DNA of 39,756 bases. Origin: Oscillospiraceae bacterium. Lineage in GTDB: Bacteria > Bacillota > Clostridia > Oscillospirales > CAG-272. Location: positions 1-39,756 of the forward strand of contig SVTO01000023.1 in NCBI GenBank assembly GCA_015063745.1, read 5' to 3'. A program made the position numbers and the translations under genes. The notes beneath the pieces are model-generated. The model was not told the DNA's origin, did no database searches, and saw only the letters and a program-made list of their open reading frames with translations. Below, one piece after another: positions 3,773 to 38,609 of the stretch. Position 1 is the stretch's first letter, and every line of letters begins with the position of its first letter.

Positions 3773-6130
3773 ATGATGATTACCAGAATACGTAAAAGAG
3801 ATGGAAGAGAAGTACCGTTCAATCTGGAAAAAATCGCAAATGCAATCTTCCGCGCAGCAAAAGTGGTAGGCGGCAGCGATTACGACGAAGCCATGACCTT
3901 AGCCTGCGAGGTTTCCGAGAGAATCGAAGAATTGTCCAGAGAAAGCGGAGATATTCCTACAGTTGAAGAAATACAGGATATGGTAGAACGTGTTCTGGTG
4001 AAGAACGGCCACGCCCGTACTGCCAAGGAGTTCATCCTGTACCGTGCAGAACGGAACAAGGTGCGTGAAATGAATACATCTCTCATGCGTACATTTGAAG
4101 ATCTGACCTTCAAGAGTGCCATTGAAAGTGATGTAAAGCGTGAAAATGCCAATATAGACGGCGATACTGCCATGGGTACCATGCTGAAGTACGGTTCCGA
4201 AGGTGCCAAGCGCTTCTACGATTTGTATGTTCTGGCTCCCAAGCACTCCAGAGCACACAAGGACGGGGACATTCATATCCACGATATGGACTTCTACGGT
4301 CTGACCACTACCTGCTGCCAGATCGATATCATCAAGCTCTTTGAAAATGGTTTTGCCACGGGACAGGGACAGCATCTGCGCGAACCCAGCGACATCATGA
4401 GCTACTCTGCACTGGCCTGCATCGCCATTCAGGCAAATCAGAACGACCAGCACGGCGGTCAGTCCATTCCCAACTTTGAATACGGTATGGCCATCGGCGT
4501 ACGGAAGACCTATGTAAGACATCTGAAGCGCAATATCGCCAAGGCTTTGGATATGGGTGATGTACTGCCCGAAGGTACCGATGTGGATCTGTATACCGAA
4601 GATCTGCTGAAGAAGATCAAGGAAACCTACGGCATTGAACCCTGCATGAAATCCGCCAAGGAAATGACCGAAGCACTGACGAAGGAGTTTGCTCCTCTGT
4701 TCGGTGACAAGGCAGCCAAGGAAGCGGCGATCATTGAAAAATATACAAACAAGGAAATCGAACGCAGCACATACCAGGCAATGGAAGCACTGATTCACAA
4801 TCTGAACACCATGCATTCCAGAGCCGGTGCACAGGTTCCGTTCTCTTCTCTGAACTACGGTACCGACACCAGCCCGGAAGGCAGACTGGTAATGCGCAGC
4901 ATACTGATGGCTACCGACGCAGGCCTGGGCCACGGTGAAACGCCGATCTTCCCGATTCAGATTTTCAAGATCAAGGAAGGCGTGAACTACAATCCCGGCG
5001 ACCCGAACTACGACCTGTTCCAGTTGGCCTGCCGCGTGTCTGCCAAGCGTCTGTTCCCGAACTTCAGCTTCCTGGACGCACCGTTCAATGCCCAGTTCTA
5101 TAAGGAAGGCGATGTATCCACTGAAGTGGCATACATGGGCTGCCGTACCAGAGTTGTGGCAAACTACTACGATAAATCCCGCGAGACGGTCAATGGCAGA
5201 GGCAACCTGAGCTTTACCTCCATCAACCTGCCCCGTATCGCTATCAACGCCAGAGGTGATGTAGACTGGTTCTTCGAAGAACTGGAACGCAAGGTAAATC
5301 TGGTAGTCGATCAGCTGCTGGAGCGTTTCCAGATCCAGTGCAGCAAGCATGTACGCAACTATCCTTTCCTGATGGGTGAAGGCGTATGGATCGATTCCGA
5401 AAAGCTGAGCAAGGATGATTCCGTTGCAGAAGTACTGAAGCACGGTACGCTGACGGTAGGCTTCATCGGTCTGGCGGAATGTCTGAAGACCCTGCTTGGT
5501 GTACACCACGGTGAAAGTGCCGAAGCCCAGAAGATGGGTCTGGAAATCGTTGGCTTCATGCGCAAGCTGACCGACGCGGCAACCGTAAAGCACGGTCTGA
5601 ACATCACTCTGATTGCGACTCCTGCAGAAGGCCTGTCCGGACGTTTTGTAAGAATCGACAGAAAGAAGTACGGTGTAATTCCCGGTGTAACGGACAGAGA
5701 GTACTATACGAACTCCTTCCATGTACCGGTATACCACGATATTTCCGCTTATGACAAGATCCGTCTGGAAGCGCCCTACCACACACTGACCAACGGTGGT
5801 CACATCACCTACATTGAGCTGGACGGTGACCCGTGTGAAAATCTGGAAGCGTTTGAGAACATCATCCGCACCATGAAGGAAGCGGGCATCGGTTACGGTG
5901 CGATCAACCATCCGGTAGACCACGACCCTGTCTGCGGTTACACGGGCATTATCGGCAACACCTGTCCCGGCTGCGGTAGAGAAGAAACTCCGAATCTGCC
6001 GAAGTTCGAACGCATCCGCCGTATCACGGGTTATCTGGTGGGCACGTTGGATCATTTCAACGATGCCAAGCGTGCTGAGGTGGAAGACCGTGTTAAGCAC
6101 ACGGTAAAGAGCGAGATGGAAATGATATAA
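3773..6130 (+). CDS. nrdD: Anaerobic (class III) ribonucleoside-triphosphate reductase
   Basis: A 785-residue glycyl-radical enzyme that reduces ribonucleoside triphosphates to deoxyribonucleotides under anaerobic conditions in the cytoplasm. The N-terminal 95 residues are an ATP-cone (ITRIRKRDGREVPFNLEKIA) for allosteric control by ATP/dATP. The catalytic barrel contains the presumed thiyl cysteine Cys457 in YMGCRTRV. Near the C-terminus two cysteine pairs (VCGYTG and CPGCG) form the zinc site, followed by the radical loop RITGYLVG with the radical glycine near residue 753. Two adjacent ATGs occur (3773 and 3776); GGAG at 3766-3769 is spaced better for the second. No nrdG activase follows; the next feature is a terminator. 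The radical-SAM activase at the right end of the window has ferredoxin inserts and is not NrdG-like. Confidence 0.97.
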   Translation: MMITRIRKRDGREVPFNLEKIANAIFRAAKVVGGSDYDEAMTLACEVSERIEELSRESGDIPTVEEIQDMVERVLVKNGHARTAKEFILYRAERNKVREMNTSLMRTFEDLTFKSAIESDVKRENANIDGDTAMGTMLKYGSEGAKRFYDLYVLAPKHSRAHKDGDIHIHDMDFYGLTTTCCQIDIIKLFENGFATGQGQHLREPSDIMSYSALACIAIQANQNDQHGGQSIPNFEYGMAIGVRKTYVRHLKRNIAKALDMGDVLPEGTDVDLYTEDLLKKIKETYGIEPCMKSAKEMTEALTKEFAPLFGDKAAKEAAIIEKYTNKEIERSTYQAMEALIHNLNTMHSRAGAQVPFSSLNYGTDTSPEGRLVMRSILMATDAGLGHGETPIFPIQIFKIKEGVNYNPGDPNYDLFQLACRVSAKRLFPNFSFLDAPFNAQFYKEGDVSTEVAYMGCRTRVVANYYDKSRETVNGRGNLSFTSINLPRIAINARGDVDWFFEELERKVNLVVDQLLERFQIQCSKHVRNYPFLMGEGVWIDSEKLSKDDSVAEVLKHGTLTVGFIGLAECLKTLLGVHHGESAEAQKMGLEIVGFMRKLTDAATVKHGLNITLIATPAEGLSGRFVRIDRKKYGVIPGVTDREYYTNSFHVPVYHDISAYDKIRLEAPYHTLTNGGHITYIELDGDPCENLEAFENIIRTMKEAGIGYGAINHPVDHDPVCGYTGIIGNTCPGCGREETPNLPKFERIRRITGYLVGTLDHFNDAKRAEVEDRVKHTVKSEMEMI

Positions 6131-6136
6131 TACCTG

Positions 6137-6168
6137 AGGAGCTTTGGTTTTGACCAAGGCTCCTTTTT
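6137..6168 (+). terminator. Intrinsic terminator of nrdD
   Basis: A 12-bp stem AGGAGCTTTGGT (6137-6148) with ACCAAGGCTCCT (6153-6164), loop TTTG and a T run to 6168, starting seven bases after the nrdD stop. Confidence 0.92.
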
Positions 6169-6221
6169 GTATGTTTTTCCTTTTTTCTCTCTACGGTTGG
6201 TATGGCTAAATCGCTATTTTC

Positions 6222-6367
6222 TTTTTTGTCCTTGGCGGACGGGCAGTTGTTTACTACTCGATGAATCGTGCTGTCGTTTATTCTTTTTTGTCCTACACGG
6301 ACGGGTGGCTATTTACTACTCTTTGTTTGGCTTAAATCGTTTATTTTTTGTGTCCTGTGCGGACGGC
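6222..6367 (+). repeat. Left array: three tandem ~61-bp units
   Basis: Units start at about 6222, 6284 and 6344. Each begins with TTTTTTG, then a small dyad GTCC-nnnnn-GGACGG (inner bases TTGGC, TACAC, TGTGC), then in the first two TTTACTACTC and a TTTATT tail. The inner bases of the dyad vary while the arms are conserved, so the arms may be kept for pairing. Confidence 0.85.
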
Positions 6368-6418
6368 CGCAGTTGGATAAAGTACGACTAAAAGGGAGAG
6401 AGATACACCAACTGCTCG

Positions 6419-6444
6419 AGAATTACCTCAGAAGAGGTAATTCT
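6419..6444. repeat. Perfect 11-bp hairpin inside the foldback element
   Basis: AGAATTACCTC (6419-6429), loop AGAA, GAGGTAATTCT (6434-6444). It has no T tract behind it, so it is not an obvious terminator. It has no counterpart on the right side of the element. Confidence 0.7.
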
Positions 6445-6468
6445 CCAACGTGCTTCCTGTAGTGGGGA

Positions 6469-6506
6469 CCTGCAGGCGCGAGGCCCCTCTAAGAACTCCC
6501 CCGCTT
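6469..6506 (+). repeat. Left arm of 38-bp perfect inverted repeat
   Basis: Begins CCTGCAGGCGCGAGGCCCCT and ends CCCCCGCTT. All 38 bases are the exact reverse complement of 7068-7105. It contains a PstI-like palindrome CTGCAG and a GC-rich block unlike the flanking DNA. Confidence 0.92.
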
Positions 6507-6711
6507 TATTAAGAGCTACGTTGGTCCGGTATTGGTTGTTGGATTGGTCAAAGTAGTGGAGGATGCAAATCAGCGCTGACCGCGGGAGGGGTACGAGGGT
6601 GGGGGCATACTGTTGTGATTAGATATGTATTAGCCGTGTACAGTGATGTGGACTGGGTGCGTGCTCATCCGTGCTAACCGCGCGAAGACTGAATGGCAGT
6701 CCTAAAACATG

Positions 6712-7000
6712 GCGGTCAGCCGAAATTTATAATGCACCCAACCTTGTACTGTAGGCAGACCTACCCTTAGTCTGTACAACCTGTCAGCGGTCAAACTCCC
6801 CTATTCATCCCGCGGCAGCCTAATTAAAAAGAAACTCAACTACTGAACCCAACGAACCCACACCCAACAACCTCTCCCTACGCACCAAGCGGCAGCCAAA
6901 TTCTTTCTGCACGGCACATTCTTCTGTGCACAAACCCACTTTTCCACAAAACGAACCGTCAACGGTATCTCTCCACTAATGCACCCTCCGGCGGTTAGCC
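6712..7000 (-). repeat. Diverged inner repeat family GCGGYYAGCC
   Basis: GCGGTCAGCC (6712-6721), GCGGCAGCC (6812-6820), GCGGCAGCC (6889-6897) and GCGGTTAGCC (6991-7000), each followed within a few bases by an AATT block, at spacings of 100, 77 and 102 bases. Opposite-orientation copies (GCTGACCGC ending 6583, GCTAACCGC ending 6681) lie in the left half, so the family itself is part of the foldback symmetry. Confidence 0.55.
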
Positions 7001-7067
7001 ATAATTGAAAAACGAGCGTGCTAAACCCAAAGAACCGCCCGACCCAAAAAACTCAACCCTTCCACCT

Positions 7068-7105
7068 AAGCGGGGGAGTTCTTAGAGGGGCCTCGCGCCT
7101 GCAGG
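7068..7105 (-). repeat. Right arm of 38-bp perfect inverted repeat
   Basis: Exact reverse complement of 6469-6506. The arm also takes part in a local hairpin: 7081-7093 (CTTAGAGGGGCCT) pairs with 7104-7116 (AGGCCTCTCTAAG) with one mismatch. The corresponding local hairpin on the left side (about 6458-6493) has decayed. Confidence 0.92.
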
Positions 7106-7118
7106 CCTCTCTAAGTGC

Positions 7119-7259
7119 CGTCCGCATAGGACACCAAAAATAAACGATTTGCACGACACAAAGAGTAGTAAAAGAATAGCCGTCCGCACAGGACAAAAAA
7201 TTAAAGGATTTAAACCAAACAAAGAGTAGTAAAAAATATCCGTCCGCCAAGGACAAAAA
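7119..7259 (-). repeat. Right array: three tandem ~60-bp units, inverted
   Basis: The same unit as the left array on the minus strand: CCGTCCG-nnnn-GGAC dyads start at 7119, 7180 and 7240, and GAGTAGTAAAA blocks lie at about 7162 and 7222. The outermost copy shares TTTTTGTCCTTGGCGGACGG with the outermost left copy, in inverted orientation. Confidence 0.85.
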
Positions 7260-7273
7260 CTAAAAACCAAAGA

Positions 7274-7319
7274 AAATAAAAAAACTGCTGTACCAGGAAA
7301 AAATCCTTGGTACAGCAGT
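7274..7319 (-). terminator. Terminator of the secreted Ig-like protein gene
   Basis: On the minus strand, ACTGCTGTACCAAGGA (7319-7304) pairs with TCCTGGTACAGCAGT (7298-7284), with one bulge and a short A-rich loop, followed by a long T run (7284 downward). It lies 15 bases behind the stop codon. Confidence 0.9.
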
Positions 7320-7334
7320 AAATCTCAATAGAAC

Positions 7335-8705
7335 TTAAGCCAGCTGAGCCAGATAATAGTATCCCAGAACGGAATCCTTGAGGATGTCCTTGATGATCTG
7401 AGTGTACTTTTCGTCATAGTAGGAGAAGCCGTTTTCCTTGTAAGCTTCGATTACATCCAGAACCAGCTCCAGATCACCGCGGCACAGAGCGATCAGCTCG
7501 CGCAGAGTGAGAATCTTGGAAGGAATCACACCGGTAGGAGGAAGAATGGTTTCGGGCTTTTCACATTTCTTGATAACGGGAATGTAAATGCCGTTCACTT
7601 CAATCCAACCGCATACCATGTAACCGTCTTCACACCACAGATTGGGGTTCCAGATGTTGCCGCAGATACCGTTCTGAGTGGGCTTCCAGCTTCCGTCAAC
7701 GATGGAAGAAGTGTACTGACCAACATACAGAACCGCATAGCCGCATACTGCAGGATTGGAAGCGGAATAAGCACGGAGAATGATCGGACCGGTGCTCTTG
7801 GCAATTACAACATTTTCATTGATAGTAGCACTGCCGTATACAACCTTCAGCTCGATGTCCTTGCTGAAGGCTTCGGTAGCATAAACGGAAACGCTGGTGG
7901 AATCGCCAACCTTGGACAGACTCCACTGTGCAGGTCTGATGTCCACTACGGGAATGGTGGAGGTGGTGGGCTTGCCGGCATCCTTTACATTAACGGTAAG
8001 ACGCAGGAAGGGAACACCGCCGTTGGTGTAGAAGTATACATAAGCGGAACCTTCGCCAACAGCTTCCATTACCTGATTGGTGCCGTCATTGTATACGCGA
8101 ACTACATTGGTGGATGCGCTGTACATCTTGTAGTTCGCGTTCATCAGCTGAACCTGACCCTTGTTCATGGTGATCTCAAAATTGTGCTTCTTGAAGAACT
8201 TGTTGAGGTCTACCATGTTGGAAGGATAGTACTTACCGCCGGGCAGCAGGCAGGAACTGTGGATAACACCGTTAGTAGTGCCGGTTGCGGGGCCGGGATA
8301 TTTGATCTGCGTGTCGTCAGCCAGATTGGTTACTCTTCTTACAGCTGCCCAGGGCGCAGTGGGCTTGTAGGTCTTAACATACTTACCGTCCTCTACAACA
8401 TCCTTGGGAGTTTCGAATTCAACCTTGGTCAGACCGGAGAAATCCTTGTAGTAGCAGTAGATGTTGTTCCACCACCAGCAGTGATGCTTGTGGCAGTTTA
8501 CAAAACCTTCTTTGAGACAGTCATCGAACTTGTAGAAAAATTCGGTGTTGATGCCGGGGAAGGTGATTACATTACCGTTCTGTGCGAGGGGCACAGTCTG
8601 GTCGGTGTAAACGGGGGACTTGGCGGATACAGCTACTGCCGCTGCAGAAGACAGCAGGGTTACGGCAGCAAGCACACCGGCAAGAAACTTCAGACTTTTT
8701 TTCAT
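7335..8705 (-). CDS. Secreted protein with Ig-like domains, function unknown
   Basis: A 456-residue exported protein. Residues 1-28 are a classical signal peptide (MKKSLKFLAGVLAAVTLLSS, cleavage likely after AVSA). Residues 63-86 form an unusual cluster rich in cysteine, histidine and aromatic residues (CLKEGFVNCHKHHCWWWNN, then YCYY), which may bind metal or form disulfides. Residues about 180-250 look like a bacterial Ig-like group 2 domain (TNVVRVYNDGTNQVMEAVGEG, then a FLRLTVNV strand). A second all-beta domain lies at about 255-330. The last 70 residues, behind a proline linker, are helical (LRELIALCRGDLELVLDVIE). No cell-wall sorting signal is present, so the protein is probably released or held non-covalently. 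Start ATG 8703-8705 follows a perfect AGGAGG (8712-8717) with a six-base gap. Monocistronic; adhesion or ligand binding is only a guess. Confidence 0.85.
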   Translation of the reverse strand: MKKSLKFLAGVLAAVTLLSSAAAVAVSAKSPVYTDQTVPLAQNGNVITFPGINTEFFYKFDDCLKEGFVNCHKHHCWWWNNIYCYYKDFSGLTKVEFETPKDVVEDGKYVKTYKPTAPWAAVRRVTNLADDTQIKYPGPATGTTNGVIHSSCLLPGGKYYPSNMVDLNKFFKKHNFEITMNKGQVQLMNANYKMYSASTNVVRVYNDGTNQVMEAVGEGSAYVYFYTNGGVPFLRLTVNVKDAGKPTTSTIPVVDIRPAQWSLSKVGDSTSVSVYATEAFSKDIELKVVYGSATINENVVIAKSTGPIILRAYSASNPAVCGYAVLYVGQYTSSIVDGSWKPTQNGICGNIWNPNLWCEDGYMVCGWIEVNGIYIPVIKKCEKPETILPPTGVIPSKILTLRELIALCRGDLELVLDVIEAYKENGFSYYDEKYTQIIKDILKDSVLGYYYLAQLA

Positions 8706-32829: not shown

Positions 32830-35637
32830 TTATTCAAAACTTATGCTTGTGAAGTATACATCCTTATCGCTTGCATAAACGATGCAGTCGATTACGTTAT
32901 TCTGTATAGAACCGCCTCTGGGAGAGCTGATGCTGAAGGATTCTGCGGTAAATTCACCCAGTTCCTTGATTGCGGTGAGCACCCAGTTGTTTTCACTTTC
33001 GAAGTATACGTTAATCTTATCCGTATCGCATACGATCAGATACAGCGTACCGTCCGTGGTTTCCGCCATTCTTACAGCGGCATTTTCGGATACACCGTCA
33101 AGTACAATTTCTTCCGTGGAAACAACGGTGGTTCCTTCCAGAACAGCGTGATACCGCTTGAAGGTTTCCGTCTTCAGTTCCGCATTGCCGAGGCCATCCA
33201 TGTCATCCAGGTCCACATGATGGTAAGTGTAGATCACGTGCAGTTTTCCTTCGGAATCCAGATAGGCATCCCCGTAGTCAGCCATATTCACGGTGGACCA
33301 GATGCCTTGGGCACCCTGTGCCGTGTAGGGAGCCTGAATTTCAATGATTTCGGGAGAAGCGTTCTTGTTCAGATTGGCCGGATGGATCAGAACAATGGAA
33401 TCCTTGATGGTGTTGGTGCGTCCGACGTATTCCACACCGTCGATATAACGGGGATAGGCAATCTTGGAAGCCACAACATAAGCGCCGCCGGCACCGTCGG
33501 AGAAGGTGTACAAATTGGTGTAATAACCGTCCAATTTGTTGGAGAGGATCATCTTGGCTCTCTTGGAGAAGGAAGCATCTTCCGTCTTGATGGTGTTGGT
33601 AAGCATACGGAAATGATCCAGATTCCAGCCGTTGCCGGTACCGTTGTAGGAAATCACGAAAGTCTTGCCGGATTCCGCATCGGTTACTGCATCGACCTGC
33701 TGGAGCAGGGTAGAATCAGATGCATTGACGTTTAAAGTGACAGCTTGTTCCGTAACCGAGTCATCGGCGGGGTTTACGATATACATAATATCCCCTGTGG
33801 GCGGGAATACGTAAATCTTACCGTCGGACAGCATACACATGTTCAGGAATTCTTCATTGTCCCCCACAAAAACACCATCGTACAGTACAGTAGACTTTCC
33901 GTTTGCATCTGTCTTGGTGATGCAGAAGTGCAGGTTGCTGTAATAGGGATCGTAGTATTTGTGATCATATTTGTATACAAAAGCAGAGTAGGTACCGTTT
34001 TCGGTATGGATTACCTGATTCTGGTGAGCAGAATAATAGGGCGGGAAGTATCTTGTTTCATTGTTAACCAAACCAAAGGTACCCAGCATATCTACTTCTT
34101 CGGTCATGGAGAAATCATCAAGAGAAAGACGGAATGTAAAGGCTTTGGCTCCGCCGGTCTCACGATTACCATATACAAAGAAGGCGATGGTATTATCCAG
34201 CGTGGAACCTCCGCGGGGTTCGCTGAGGGAAATTGACCGGCAACCTACATCTTCGAAAGTCTTTTCCGATACCATTGTCCAACTCTTGCCAAGGGCATCA
34301 TCCGCCTTGAACACACGAATGGACATAGGAACAAAAGGATTGCCGCCATTATACGTAAGTGCTTCCATCATATACAATGTTCCGTCAAGACTCTGGGCAA
34401 GCATAAACTTGGAGTTGTCCGGATCGGCATATGACGGAATCTGTTCGATTTTTTCGCTGTAGATGCACTCCATACCGTCGAAAATAACGTGACGATACTG
34501 CAGCTCAGGATCCAGATCCGGGAAATTACCGGTAATGTCATACAAATAGAACATGTAAATAATATGCAGATAACCGTCCGCGTCAATGAATACATGGCCG
34601 CTCTGTTCATGAGTTACTTCGGACCAGATACCTTCGCGAGCTTTTTCACGATAGGGTTCCTGAACAACTTTATATTCAATGTTTTCCGCAGAAGTAAGAT
34701 CCGGAATATGGAACAGGTAGAAAGTATCATGAGCATATTTGCCGTTAATGGAACCTTCATAAGAACCTTCATAACCTACTTCATCTGCTATCAAAGACAA
34801 ATTAACACCGGTACGGCCCATTACATAGGCACCACCGTTTCCATCCGGCAGGGGATAGAGATAATTTACACGTCCGAGGATATCAGGGAATATCTGGTGA
34901 ATACTGGTTGTTGTCCATTCCTTGGTTTCCATATCAAAGGTAAACCACTCCAGAACGTACTCGTTGGTTTCATAGCAGCTGACATAGAACTGATACAGCT
35001 TACGGTTCGCAAAATCGAACATGGTCTGGGAATAACTGGGGGAGTACGTGTACTTCTTTTCATCGGATTTTGAAGAGAATACAGCATCGGCACGGTGAAT
35101 TTCCACTTCATCGGTTTCCGCATCGAAAATATAGGTACGCAGATCCACCGTGGAACCGACAGTACCGATCACATCACCGTTGGCATCCTGACCGATGTTG
35201 AGCTGCATGGTGGAAGCATCGCTCTTGTATTCATCGTAATACAGAAGAGTTACGTTTTCCTCATTGTCCACTTTTACAAAGTAGAATTCGGAATTGCCGT
35301 GGTAAGTGTCATTGAAGAACTTGGCCACCACTGCATAGGTTGCTCTTTCGGTATGTACCACACGCATCTGATGACCACCGTGACAAACGTTATAGGCGCT
35401 GGCACCACCGGTGGATAAAGCCATTTCATTTGCCGCAAGAATGCTTCCCGCATCTGCCACAGTAATCGTATGGCCGGAGGGGGTCAGTACGGGTGCGGGT
35501 GCTTCGGTTTCGGCGGATTCGGTTTCCGTCAGCTCGGTCTCGGGGATTTCGGTAGTGTCAGTTTCATCATTGACAGCAGTATTACAGCCGGTAAGGAGAA
35601 GAATACCGGTCAGCAATAACAGAAATAGTTTTTTCAT
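32830..35637 (-). CDS. Large lipoprotein with two homologous halves (paralogue 1)
   Basis: A 935-residue exported lipoprotein: signal peptide MKKLFLLLLTGILLLTGC with a lipobox LLTGC and lipidated Cys18, then an acidic Thr/Glu/Pro-rich linker (about 25-52, ETELTETESAETEAPAP). The rest is beta-rich with many short repeats of the type DGNGGAYV, DADGYLHIIY and SDGKIYVFPP, as in beta-propellers. The two halves match each other: GGHQMRVVHTERATYAVV near residue 89 against SAHQNQVIHTENGTYSAFV near 535. Likewise GIWSEVTHEQSGHVFIDADG matches GIWSTVNMADYGDAYLDSEG, and SLSEPRGGST matches SISSPRGGSI. Each half is therefore about 445 residues. No enzyme motif is recognised. It starts behind GGAGG. It is a close tandem paralogue of the next upstream gene. 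It probably faces the outside of the cell membrane; binding of polymers or sensing is speculative. Confidence 0.85.
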   Translation of the reverse strand: MKKLFLLLLTGILLLTGCNTAVNDETDTTEIPETELTETESAETEAPAPVLTPSGHTITVADAGSILAANEMALSTGGASAYNVCHGGHQMRVVHTERATYAVVAKFFNDTYHGNSEFYFVKVDNEENVTLLYYDEYKSDASTMQLNIGQDANGDVIGTVGSTVDLRTYIFDAETDEVEIHRADAVFSSKSDEKKYTYSPSYSQTMFDFANRKLYQFYVSCYETNEYVLEWFTFDMETKEWTTTSIHQIFPDILGRVNYLYPLPDGNGGAYVMGRTGVNLSLIADEVGYEGSYEGSINGKYAHDTFYLFHIPDLTSAENIEYKVVQEPYREKAREGIWSEVTHEQSGHVFIDADGYLHIIYMFYLYDITGNFPDLDPELQYRHVIFDGMECIYSEKIEQIPSYADPDNSKFMLAQSLDGTLYMMEALTYNGGNPFVPMSIRVFKADDALGKSWTMVSEKTFEDVGCRSISLSEPRGGSTLDNTIAFFVYGNRETGGAKAFTFRLSLDDFSMTEEVDMLGTFGLVNNETRYFPPYYSAHQNQVIHTENGTYSAFVYKYDHKYYDPYYSNLHFCITKTDANGKSTVLYDGVFVGDNEEFLNMCMLSDGKIYVFPPTGDIMYIVNPADDSVTEQAVTLNVNASDSTLLQQVDAVTDAESGKTFVISYNGTGNGWNLDHFRMLTNTIKTEDASFSKRAKMILSNKLDGYYTNLYTFSDGAGGAYVVASKIAYPRYIDGVEYVGRTNTIKDSIVLIHPANLNKNASPEIIEIQAPYTAQGAQGIWSTVNMADYGDAYLDSEGKLHVIYTYHHVDLDDMDGLGNAELKTETFKRYHAVLEGTTVVSTEEIVLDGVSENAAVRMAETTDGTLYLIVCDTDKINVYFESENNWVLTAIKELGEFTAESFSISSPRGGSIQNNVIDCIVYASDKDVYFTSISFE

Positions 35638-35686
35638 TAAAAATCCTCCAGGCGTTATATATGGCAGCTTAATTACTGTTGGTGTA

Positions 35687-35715
35687 AGTATAACAAATAG
35701 ATAGAAATATTACAA
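35687..35715 (-). promoter_or_regulatory. Promoter of lipoprotein paralogue 1
   Basis: On the minus strand TTGTAA (35715-35710), a 17-base spacer and an extended -10 TGTTATACT (35695-35687). The paralogue therefore has its own promoter behind a terminator. Confidence 0.65.
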
Positions 35716-35755
35716 TTGGCAAAACAACTAAATATTTTTTTGCTTTTTGTGCAAC

Positions 35756-35800
35756 ATGAAAAGCCGGAAATACCCCAATGAAGGCATCCCCGGCCTTTTC
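35756..35800 (-). terminator. Terminator of lipoprotein paralogue 2
   Basis: On the minus strand GAAAAGGCCGG (35800 downward) pairs with CCGGCTTTTC (ending near 35756) with a bulge, the interior forming a second helix GGATGCC/GGGGTAT-like. It starts a few bases behind the stop. Confidence 0.65.
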
Positions 35801-35804
35801 GGAA

Positions 35805-38609
35805 TTATTCAAAAGTTACGTTTGTGAAGTATACATCCTTATCGCTTGCATATACGATGCAGTCGATTACATTATTCTGTACGGAACCGCTTCTGGGGGA
35901 ACTGATGCTGAAGGATGTTGCGGTGAATTCGCCAAGATCCTTGATCTGTGTCAGTGCCCATCCATCTTCGGTTTCGAAGTATACGTTAATCTTCGCACCT
36001 TCTTCACCTGTGTTGCATACCAGCAGATACAGCGTTCCGTCGGTGGTTTCCGCCATTCTCAGAGAAGCTGTTTCATTCAATCCCTCGATTGCCAGTTCTT
36101 CATTGGAAATCAGCTCACTGCCGCTGTAGACTGCATGATAACGCTTGAAGGTATTTGCCTTCAGTTCTGCATTACCGGGTCTGTCCATGTCATCCATATC
36201 CATATGGTAGTAGCTGTAGATTACATGCAGCTTACCTTCGGAATCCATGTAGGCGTCACCTTCGTCGGCCATATTTACTACGGACCAGATACCTTCCGCT
36301 GCCTGTTCTGCATAGGGAGCCTGAATATCAATCGGTTCAAGTGCACAGTTCTTATTCAGATTGTCAATGTAAATAAGGGCAATAGAGTCTTTAACATTGT
36401 CAGTACGGCCGAGGAAATTCAGTCCTTCCACATAATTGGGGTCAACCTGTCTGGTGGCAACTGCATATGCGCCTTCATTTCCGTCCGGGAAGAAATAGAA
36501 GTTGGTGTAGAATCCACCCACGTTGTCGGACATAAACATCTTTGCTCTCTTGGCAAAAGTAAGGTCTTCGGTATTCATGGATTTAGCATCCATACGGATA
36601 GATGCAGGAAGCCAACTATCTTTCCAATTCCAGCTCAATCCATTACCGGTAATGATAATTGCATAATCTTTTTCCTTAATGGGGTCGGTTACAATATTGA
36701 TCTGCTGCATCAACATATCGGTAGCAGGAGCCAAGCCAACTTCATGTTCGGTTACCGTATCCGTTGCGGGATCAACAACATACATATATTCGCCTGTGGG
36801 CGGGCAAACATAAATCTTGCCATCCGACAGCATCTGCATATTCAGGAATTCTTCATAGTCGCCAAGGAACATACCGTTGTACAGTACGGTAGATTTGCCC
36901 TCTGCATCGGTCTTGGTAATGCAGAAATGCAGCTCGCAGAAAAAGGGATCGTAGTATTCGTAACCGTATTTATATACGAAAGCTGCGTAGGTACCGTTTT
37001 CAGTATGGATTACCTGATTCTGGTGAGCGGAATAATAAGGATAGAAGTGCAGATATTCGTCAATCGTCAGATCGAATCTTCCCAGAGTATCAACGGGTTC
37101 GGTTATACTGTAATCTTCCAGTGACAGTTTGCAAATATAAGCATGGTAAGGGGTATTATGCGTATAGAAGAACAGACTGATGGTGTTATCCTGTGTGGAA
37201 CCATTGCGTACATTACTTACAGAACCGGACCAGAGTTCCAGATCTTCATAGATATGGGTAGCTTGCAGTGTCCAGGACGTACCAAGTGCATCGTTTGCTT
37301 TGTAGATCTCGATAGTTCCGGGCATGCTTTCCTGTCTGAAAAGGATCATATACAGCGTACCGTCTGTTGCCTGTGTAAGCATGGGTTTAAGCGCCCCATT
37401 GGAATCATTAAGCTGTACATCCAGTTTTTCATTGTAAACACTTTCCATACCTTTAAAGATGGCATGACGATGATGCAGTTCAGGATCCAGATCCGGGAAA
37501 TTGCCGGAAACATCTAACAGGTTGAACTGATAAATAATATGCAGATAACCGTCTGCATCCATGAATACATGGCCGTTATTTTCGTGGCTTACATTGGACC
37601 AGATTCCTTCAAAGGCTCTGGATCTGTCAGGTTCCTGTACAACTTTATATTCAATGTTTTCGGCAGAGGTAAGATCCGGAATATGGAAAAGATACATCGT
37701 ATCGTGGGCGTACTTGCCGCTGAGAGAACCTTCATATCCCACTTCATCTGCCAACAGTGTCATATCTACACCGGTACGGCCTGTTACATAAGCACCGCCG
37801 TTTCCGTCAGCAATAGGATAGATGTAATTGACACGTCCGAGAATATCGGGGAATGTCTGACAGATGCTGGTGGTTGTCCACTCCTTGGTTTCCAGATCAA
37901 AGGTAAACCATTCCAGCGCATATTCGTTTGTTTCATAGCAGCTGACATAGAACTGATACAGCTTCCGATTTGCAAAGTCGAACATGGTCTGGGAATAACC
38001 GGGAGAATACACGTACTGTTTCTCATCAGATTTGGAGGAGAATACCGGCTCAGCACGGTAAATTTCCACTTCGTCCGTTTCCGCATCAAAAATGTAGGTA
38101 CGCAGCTCTGTGCCGCAGCCAACGGTACCAATAACGTCGCCGTTGATATCCTGACCGATGTTGAGCTGCATGGTGGAAGCTTCGCTAGGATATTCATCGT
38201 AGTAAATGAGCGAGACGTTTTCTTCGTTATCGACCTTCACAAAGTAAAATTCAGAATTGCCGTGGTAACTGTCGTTGAAATACTTGACTACGATTGCGTA
38301 GGTACCTCTTTCCGTATGTACCACACGCATCTGATGACCGCCATGTACGGCATAATAGGGTCTGGAATCTTTAAGTCCCAGAGACATTTCGTTGGCTTTC
38401 AGAATGCTTTCTACATCCTCTACGGAAATCGTATGGGCGGAGGGGGTAAGCACGGGGGCAGGGGCTTCGGTTTCGGCGGATTCGGTTTCCGTCAGCTCGG
38501 TCTCGGGAACTGCCGATGTATCGGTTTCATCGGTTACGGGAGAGCCGCATCCGGCAAAGAGTAATGCGCCCGTAAGAAGCACGGTGAGAAGTTTTGCGTG
38601 TTTTTTCAT
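35805..38609 (-). CDS. Large lipoprotein with two homologous halves (paralogue 2)
   Basis: A 934-residue lipoprotein with signal peptide and lipobox MKKHAKLLTVLLTGALLFAG followed by the lipidated Cys21. Its acidic linker DETDTSAVPETELTETESAE is nearly the same as in paralogue 1, and the DNA of this part is almost identical. The domain order is the same: GGHQMRVVHTERGTYAIVVK in the first half, SAHQNQVIHTENGTYAAFVY in the second, ending NNVIDCIVYASDKDVYFTNV. Long stretches are identical with paralogue 1 (for example HGNSEFYFVKVDNEENV and SQTMFDFANRKLYQFYVSCY), while the segment around residues 390-480 and the middle of half two have diverged. It starts behind GGAGG (38618-38622). Recent tandem duplication explains the pair; function is unknown. 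Confidence 0.85.
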   Translation of the reverse strand: MKKHAKLLTVLLTGALLFAGCGSPVTDETDTSAVPETELTETESAETEAPAPVLTPSAHTISVEDVESILKANEMSLGLKDSRPYYAVHGGHQMRVVHTERGTYAIVVKYFNDSYHGNSEFYFVKVDNEENVSLIYYDEYPSEASTMQLNIGQDINGDVIGTVGCGTELRTYIFDAETDEVEIYRAEPVFSSKSDEKQYVYSPGYSQTMFDFANRKLYQFYVSCYETNEYALEWFTFDLETKEWTTTSICQTFPDILGRVNYIYPIADGNGGAYVTGRTGVDMTLLADEVGYEGSLSGKYAHDTMYLFHIPDLTSAENIEYKVVQEPDRSRAFEGIWSNVSHENNGHVFMDADGYLHIIYQFNLLDVSGNFPDLDPELHHRHAIFKGMESVYNEKLDVQLNDSNGALKPMLTQATDGTLYMILFRQESMPGTIEIYKANDALGTSWTLQATHIYEDLELWSGSVSNVRNGSTQDNTISLFFYTHNTPYHAYICKLSLEDYSITEPVDTLGRFDLTIDEYLHFYPYYSAHQNQVIHTENGTYAAFVYKYGYEYYDPFFCELHFCITKTDAEGKSTVLYNGMFLGDYEEFLNMQMLSDGKIYVCPPTGEYMYVVDPATDTVTEHEVGLAPATDMLMQQINIVTDPIKEKDYAIIITGNGLSWNWKDSWLPASIRMDAKSMNTEDLTFAKRAKMFMSDNVGGFYTNFYFFPDGNEGAYAVATRQVDPNYVEGLNFLGRTDNVKDSIALIYIDNLNKNCALEPIDIQAPYAEQAAEGIWSVVNMADEGDAYMDSEGKLHVIYSYYHMDMDDMDRPGNAELKANTFKRYHAVYSGSELISNEELAIEGLNETASLRMAETTDGTLYLLVCNTGEEGAKINVYFETEDGWALTQIKDLGEFTATSFSISSPRSGSVQNNVIDCIVYASDKDVYFTNVTFE

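Follow-up and report, generated by a model that had tools for sequence, protein, structure and literature searches.

A dispersed gene-free repeat with covarying hairpin ends in a genus of the Oscillospirales

The element between two convergent genes

The stretch of DNA analysed here, a contig of 39,756 nucleotides from an Oscillospiraceae bacterium (the window), contains a gene-free element of about 1 kb, located at approximately 6186-7259 in the spacer of two convergent genes and flanked by the terminator-like hairpins of these genes (Table 1). A similar hairpin is present 3´ of the orthologous reductase-like gene in the related genome G008, at a site that lacks the element.

The anatomy of the element had been described in an earlier note from the letters alone, and this description is confirmed: the architecture is real and far from chance. 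The three tandem units per end, in opposite orientation, can be followed with TGTCCNNNNCGGACGG, which occurs six times in the window, on the plus strand at 6227, 6289 and 6351 and on the minus strand at 7118, 7180 and 7240, with zero occurrences expected from 100 shuffles. Its spacing (62 and 62 nucleotides on the left, 62 and 60 on the right) agrees with the unit period of about 60 bp that had been noted. Read in opposite orientation, the outermost 20 bases of the two ends (6223-6242 and 7240-7259) are the same, and the inner inverted repeat (6469-6506 and 7068-7105) has 38 nucleotides and is 100% complementary. The opposite base skew of the two halves was likewise found, with a T+G fraction of 0.57 on the left and 0.35 on the right; this difference of 0.22 compares with a maximum absolute difference of 0.14 among 727 overlapping stretches of identical length from the rest of the contig. 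An ORF check of the window copy revealed no ORF of at least 80 amino acids. The fold energy of this copy is -455 kcal/mol, compared to a mean of -298 kcal/mol (sd 7.5) in 30 dinucleotide shuffles, which places it about 21 standard deviations below the mean.

The left boundary extends to about 6186 through a diverged outer unit, which is present in other copies too; sequence resembling this left cap unit was also found outside the copies of G008. The foldback character that had been proposed holds for the ends but not for the inner 561 bp, which gave an arm-arm score of 58 compared to a mean of 54 and a maximum of 76 in shuffled sequences. In the window copy, about 100 bp of other sequence interrupt hairpin C on the left, an interruption seen in one further copy only (L009) among the copies compared. 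Elsewhere in the window (32830-38609), two adjoining ORFs of 935 and 934 amino acids on the minus strand appear by eye to be close paralogues with lipoprotein-like starts.

Table 1. Features of the element and its flanks in the window (G000 is the genome from which the window comes)
Feature	Position	Strand	Evidence
Terminator-like hairpin of the upstream gene (reductase-like ORF 3773-6130); flanking, outside the element	6136-6165	+	scan: 13 pairs, T-rich tail
Left outer cap unit (TCTCTCTACGGTTGGTATGGCTAAATCGCTATTTTCTTTTTT); soft outer boundary	6186-6227	+	also present beyond the arrays in many copies of G000
Left array unit 1, 62 bp	6228-6289	+	repeat search and copy comparison
Left array unit 2, 62 bp	6290-6351	+	repeat search and copy comparison
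Left hairpin A (GTCC-TGTGC-GGAC), then GG	6352-6366	+	loop TRYGC and complementary stem kept in 81 distinct ends from 8 genomes
About 100 bp of other sequence in place of the 5´ arm of left hairpin C	6368-6468	+	comparison with other copies
3´ remnant of hairpin C on the left plus the conserved GAACTCCCCCGCTT tail; left arm of the 38-nt inverted repeat	6469-6506	+	copy comparison
Core without gene; mosaic of blocks common to copies, GCTRACCGCG motifs in both orientations	6507-7067	.	alignment of 15 copies; four-gamete test on 14
Right end module, 67 nt: hairpin A, GGCAC, hairpin C, GAACTCCCCCGCTT; intact	7068-7134	-	alignment A1, pair counts; model R1, 97.2 bits
Right array unit, 62 bp	7133-7194	-	repeat search and copy comparison
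Right outer array unit, 60 bp	7195-7254	-	repeat search and copy comparison
Terminator-like hairpin of the downstream gene (ORF 7335-8705, minus strand); flanking, outside the element	7284-7319	-	inverted repeat I11, 12-nt loop, T run on the minus strand

Copies, empty sites and mosaics

The element is not a single-copy sequence. In its own genome (G000, 2.44 Mb), the window copy gave 128 blastn matches with 72-100% identity, and the end module defines 24 loci, of which 16 have both ends, seven are cut by contig ends and one has a single end inside a contig; relatives were found in the genus. Of 15 copies measured, one has a length of 558 bp over both 38-nucleotide inner repeats and the others 634-639 bp, and the cores of 14 copies are 83-92% identical. 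The arrays have between one and four units on each side, every unit about 60 bp long, with a diverged outer cap unit outside many of the arrays, and since the number of outer units varies between copies the boundaries are soft. Furthermore, G000 contains core-less mini copies (L031, L034 and L032) and, on contig C65, a diverged subfamily with a core that is a clear foldback. Among the seven elements tested for foldback cores, those from C65, G008, G004, G009 and G017 lie above the shuffle maximum, those of the window and of G013 do not. The copies inspected are placed between genes, and the counts at gene ends are opposite by genome, with 25 at 3´ and 11 at 5´ ends in G000 and 4 and 13, respectively, in G009. 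Just outside the right arm of L023 (contig C36 of G000), a copy that lacks about 80 bp of the core, the sequence resembles by eye the end of an IS3-type transposase gene.

Contigs of G000 start or end inside copies at seven of the 24 loci, which could point to an artefact of the assembly of metagenome data; such breaks are, however, an expected consequence of a real repeat. With both ends in one contig at 16 loci, most of them with unique flanks on both sides, and with the same architecture in the assemblies of other species, an artefact is extremely improbable.

A covariance model built from the 67-nucleotide end module (R1, cut-off E <= 0.001) matched 8 of the 295 genomes of the family. Six of these, including G000 itself, belong to the genus, and two (G145 and G277) to other genera. 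A 16-base end motif gave matches in 12 of the 25 genus genomes, nine of which carry 12-43 matches each, and none in the remaining 13, with one match over all 25 genomes in the backward control. Diverged forms can escape this motif search, as seen in G007, which has R1 matches but no match of the motif. Outside the genus, the motif occurred once or twice in 14 of the other 393 genomes of the order, which is chance level (15 in the backward control). Viral contigs gave no match to a 24-base piece of the element, and phage and plasmid records no match to the element. A degenerate 21-base pattern gave a single viral match, which lies in a coding stretch that has no other part of the module and was taken as chance. 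Our literature search, which lay mostly outside subscription journals and preprints, found no publication pointing to this element family.

Across species, the order of the parts is kept (outer hairpin or array, hairpin A, GGCRC, hairpin C, GAA, core, followed by the inverse), and arms, cores and stems vary. The length of the element is 524-525 bp, module to module, in G008 (four copies), 375-398 bp in G004 and G013 (seven copies), 285-320 bp in G009 (four copies) and 931-937 bp in G017 (three copies). A minimal form was seen in G009 (L095:1767-1884), where hairpin A occupies each end of one near-perfect palindrome that has no core, and another end motif comes after it.

Ten sites of G000 could be placed in G008, where seven are empty (the window site, L009, L011, L013, L015, L016 and L021) and three are occupied as in G000 (L012, L020 and L029). 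In a blastn control, the element was absent from the seven empty stretches and was detected in the three occupied ones, which served as positive controls. Eleven sites were queried in G008 in one search; no answer was obtained from L017, whose flanks are 5.5 kb apart, from L018, which had no match, and from L023, where only one flank was found. At the window site, the flanking genes are about 0.1 kb apart in G008 compared to 1.2 kb in G000; the reductase gene is 96% identical over the 376 amino acids searched and the convergent neighbour 53.7%. Absence in G008 could result from loss instead of gain, and the two are not separable site by site. The earlier note had suggested searching relatives for other copies, empty sites and target duplications; the first two were found, and target duplications were not seen by eye in the flanks. 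The empty-site junctions are not base-exact because the spacers have diverged.

Sites are also common to G004 and G013 (L147/L159, L146/L158 and L141/L151, all sequence-checked). At these three sites the flanks match and the core type is species-specific; the L141 copy has no right half. The pair L130/L155 was left out of the shared sites, since it has the same neighbouring gene on a different side. Near an HMGL-like gene, G000 and G004 have the element on the upstream side and G009 has it on both; there is none in the G013 stretch, and in G022 it is found at apparently the same spot as in G004. Part of the element positions is old: three of ten G000 sites are filled in G008 and at least three are common to G004 and G013.

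The copies of G000 are recombinant mosaics. In a four-gamete test on 14 copies (L023 was left out for its 80-bp deletion), incompatible site pairs in the cores amounted to 34% (117/342) at distances of up to 15 bp versus 69% (3157/4560) at 100 bp or more, and none of 500 permutations gave a short-range incompatibility as low. One G008 copy out of four carries a flipped apex loop, as arm-arm recombination would give.

Because part of the sites is old, the element might be maintained by the host, as a chromosomal element of the BIME kind that offers sites for nucleoid, topoisomerase or recombination proteins between genes and is homogenised by gene conversion. The positions common to species (three of ten for G000 and G008, and the three of G004 and G013 with their own cores) are in line with this, as are the intergenic location of the inspected copies and the motif GCTRACCGCG, which is kept in the cores of G000, G008 and G013. 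However, seven of ten placeable sites are empty in G008, no binding protein is known, and 13 of 25 genus genomes have no motif match, although diverged forms can be missed there. We regard a host-maintained element as rather unlikely.

Covarying hairpins at the ends

Each end consists of hairpin A, with the constant loop TRYGC and a variable stem, followed by GGCRC, hairpin C, again with a variable stem, and GAA. The stems of hairpin A include GTCC/GGAC, TCCC/GGGA, CCCC/GGGG, CCAC/GTGG, CTCC/GGAG and TGCC/GGCA. When ends were collected without requiring a stem, 319 of 324 inner pairs of hairpin A were Watson-Crick pairs (81 distinct ends, 8 genomes), compared to a mean of 73% and a maximum of 81% in shuffles. 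In hairpin C, 638 of 676 positions in 55 distinct hairpins form Watson-Crick pairs, in a sample that was selected for pairing. A 15-sequence alignment of the end module from G000 and G008 contains four pairs changed on both sides; its covariation score is 0.119 versus 0.045, and none of 500 shuffles reached it. The count of further pair types in the module was not above shuffles (73/500). Covariation is present in the hairpin A stems and in the end-module score.

Covarying stems are equally expected for folded DNA and for structured RNA. Transcription of the element into a putative large structured RNA, or into two divergent ones, would match the hairpins that covary around a constant loop, the very low fold energy and the terminator-like outer hairpins with changing stems beside the G004 and G013 elements, and the strong covariation supports this option of the earlier note. 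RNA stems, however, are expected to contain more wobble pairs. In hairpin A, 1 G-T and 1 A-C pair stand against 319 Watson-Crick pairs, and in the selected sample of hairpin C 9 G-T and 20 A-C pairs (inward reading) against 638, and these partly represent one lineage repeated or misaligned inserts. Since wobble pairs are rare in both reading directions, selection for folded DNA or repair of quasi-palindromes fits better than RNA, and we infer from this rarity folded DNA more than RNA. The same folds are, furthermore, located on opposite strands in the two halves, and there is no sigma-70-like promoter inside the element, the sole match in 5900-7500 being located outside it at 6127-6156. Rfam searches were negative for the window at gathering score, for 6100-7340 with E values of up to 1 and, again at gathering score, for seven loci of relatives and variants. 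A classical structured RNA on one strand is less likely because wobble pairs are rare and the halves fold on opposite strands, and we consider it improbable that the element is a locus of structured RNA. An asymmetry of the wobble pairs was discarded as a guide to the RNA strand, since at least five A-C cells are misaligned hairpins with an inserted palindrome and the others repeat one lineage.

Some hairpins contain inserted small palindromes with the outer stem retained, for example in G004 and G009. Short palindromes (e.g. GGAGTTCAC..GTGAACTCC) were seen inside the end-module hairpins of L139, L140, L141, L142, L147 and L149 in G004 and of L067 and L074 in G009, as if smaller hairpin repeats land in larger ones. 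The outer hairpins at the G004 and G013 loci (L130-L160) are composed of an A-tract, a changing GC stem and a T-tract and resemble bidirectional terminators; other ends carry GTCTGCGAGTGCAGAC. No clear association was found between the type of the outer module and the orientation of the neighbouring gene, with gene ends taken from ORFs and therefore error-prone: type TERM was counted 14 times at 3´ and 12 times at 5´ ends in G004 and twice at each in G013, type Q 4 and 8 times in G004 and 11 and 6 times in G013.

Proposed mobility and comparison with known systems

The preferred reading is that the element is a non-autonomous, gene-free dispersed repeat, MITE/foldback-like, that inserts into intergenic spacers, and we consider this probable. 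The earlier note had left the choice between a foldback/MITE-like element and a large structured RNA; dispersed copies, empty sites and inverted gene-free ends agree with the former, but neither a target duplication nor a transposase was found with them. Among the loci inspected, neither a transposase partner nor an autonomous copy was found. Array remnants located 3.3 kb apart on contig C76 of G000 were considered as a candidate autonomous copy, but the ORFs between them look ordinary, as do those of a G013 stretch between two ends.

RAYT/IS200 as the likely mover was rejected. PF01797 was found in 8 of 25 genus genomes and NF047646 in 11 of 25, none over cut-off, with 5 of nine element-rich genomes and 6 of 16 others among them. 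Two element-rich genomes that are 93% complete (G017 and G024) have no Y1 or RAYT match. The Y1/RAYT matches are not associated with the element, and the RAYT-like gene of G000 (69.8 bits with NF047646, cut-off 80) is flanked by its own GTAGGGGA-type repeats. RAYT does not fit as mover because of these own repeats, the lack of association across genomes and the two element-rich genomes without Y1/RAYT. At L082:560-1900 (contig C13 of G000), the RAYT-like gene (195 amino acids) precedes a stretch of about 900 bp made up of GTAGGGGA/GGGAGGATCAAGATCCTCCCC palindromic repeats, and what appears by eye to be a pair of these repeats is located inside the reading frame of the gene.

MITEs and foldback elements share with the family described here gene-free inverted ends, many dispersed intergenic copies and presence or absence between relatives, and foldback elements in addition tandem units within long inverted arms. 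Unlike them, the element has a length of about 0.3-1 kb with complex hairpin ends, neither a target duplication nor a parent transposase was found, and the end stems vary in sequence with fold and loop preserved. As target duplication and transposase were not found, the element does not merit the name MITE.

In REP/BIME repeats with RAYT, a GTAG or CGTC tag is located at the stem end (PMC3733652). REP, BIME and REPIN repeats resemble the element as extragenic palindromic hairpins in inverse pairs, with mosaic arrangement and high copy number (PMC3733652). The element, in contrast, is much larger, and its stem has no direct GTAG or CGTC tag: hairpin C is flanked by GGCRC and GAA, and CGTC is found four bases beyond the stem in outward reading. 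There is also no association of the element with a RAYT gene, and the REP/RAYT hallmarks that were tested do not apply to it.

For the element we propose a mode of recognition as in integron attC sites and IS200/IS605 ends, in which the strand is recognised in its folded form and little of the sequence is conserved. Unlike at attC sites, no cassettes were seen, and IS200/IS605 ends are not known to be inverse copies of each other. With the large structured RNAs of Rfam the element has in common many covarying hairpins and a size of about 0.5-1 kb, but it has no Rfam match, forms the same folds on both strands and rarely contains wobble pairs.

For the spread of a MITE/foldback-like element we suggest the following route. 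For an enzyme supplied in trans, the recognition signal would be the loop and shape of ends folded into hairpins of single-stranded DNA, and this enzyme would move or copy the element; gene conversion would then homogenise the copies within each genome, and deletion would yield the core-less mini copies. The ends may thus be recognised by their folded shape. As a tentative and possible extension, the family could represent a new class of non-autonomous mobile DNA, with ends recognised as folded single-stranded hairpins through loop and shape instead of stem sequence, and a candidate recombinase that is neither RAYT nor IS200-type, in which the stems are free to change between species and the copies of one genome change together.

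Since copies of the element end contigs, they affect the assembly of these genomes. If the proposed reading is true, a repeat family with ends that retain fold and loop, and not sequence, is present in many species of a single genus. The family would then be a natural test case for the recognition of DNA by its folded shape, as well as a test case for how non-coding repeats dispersed in bacterial genomes evolve in concert and for finding the enzyme behind the family.
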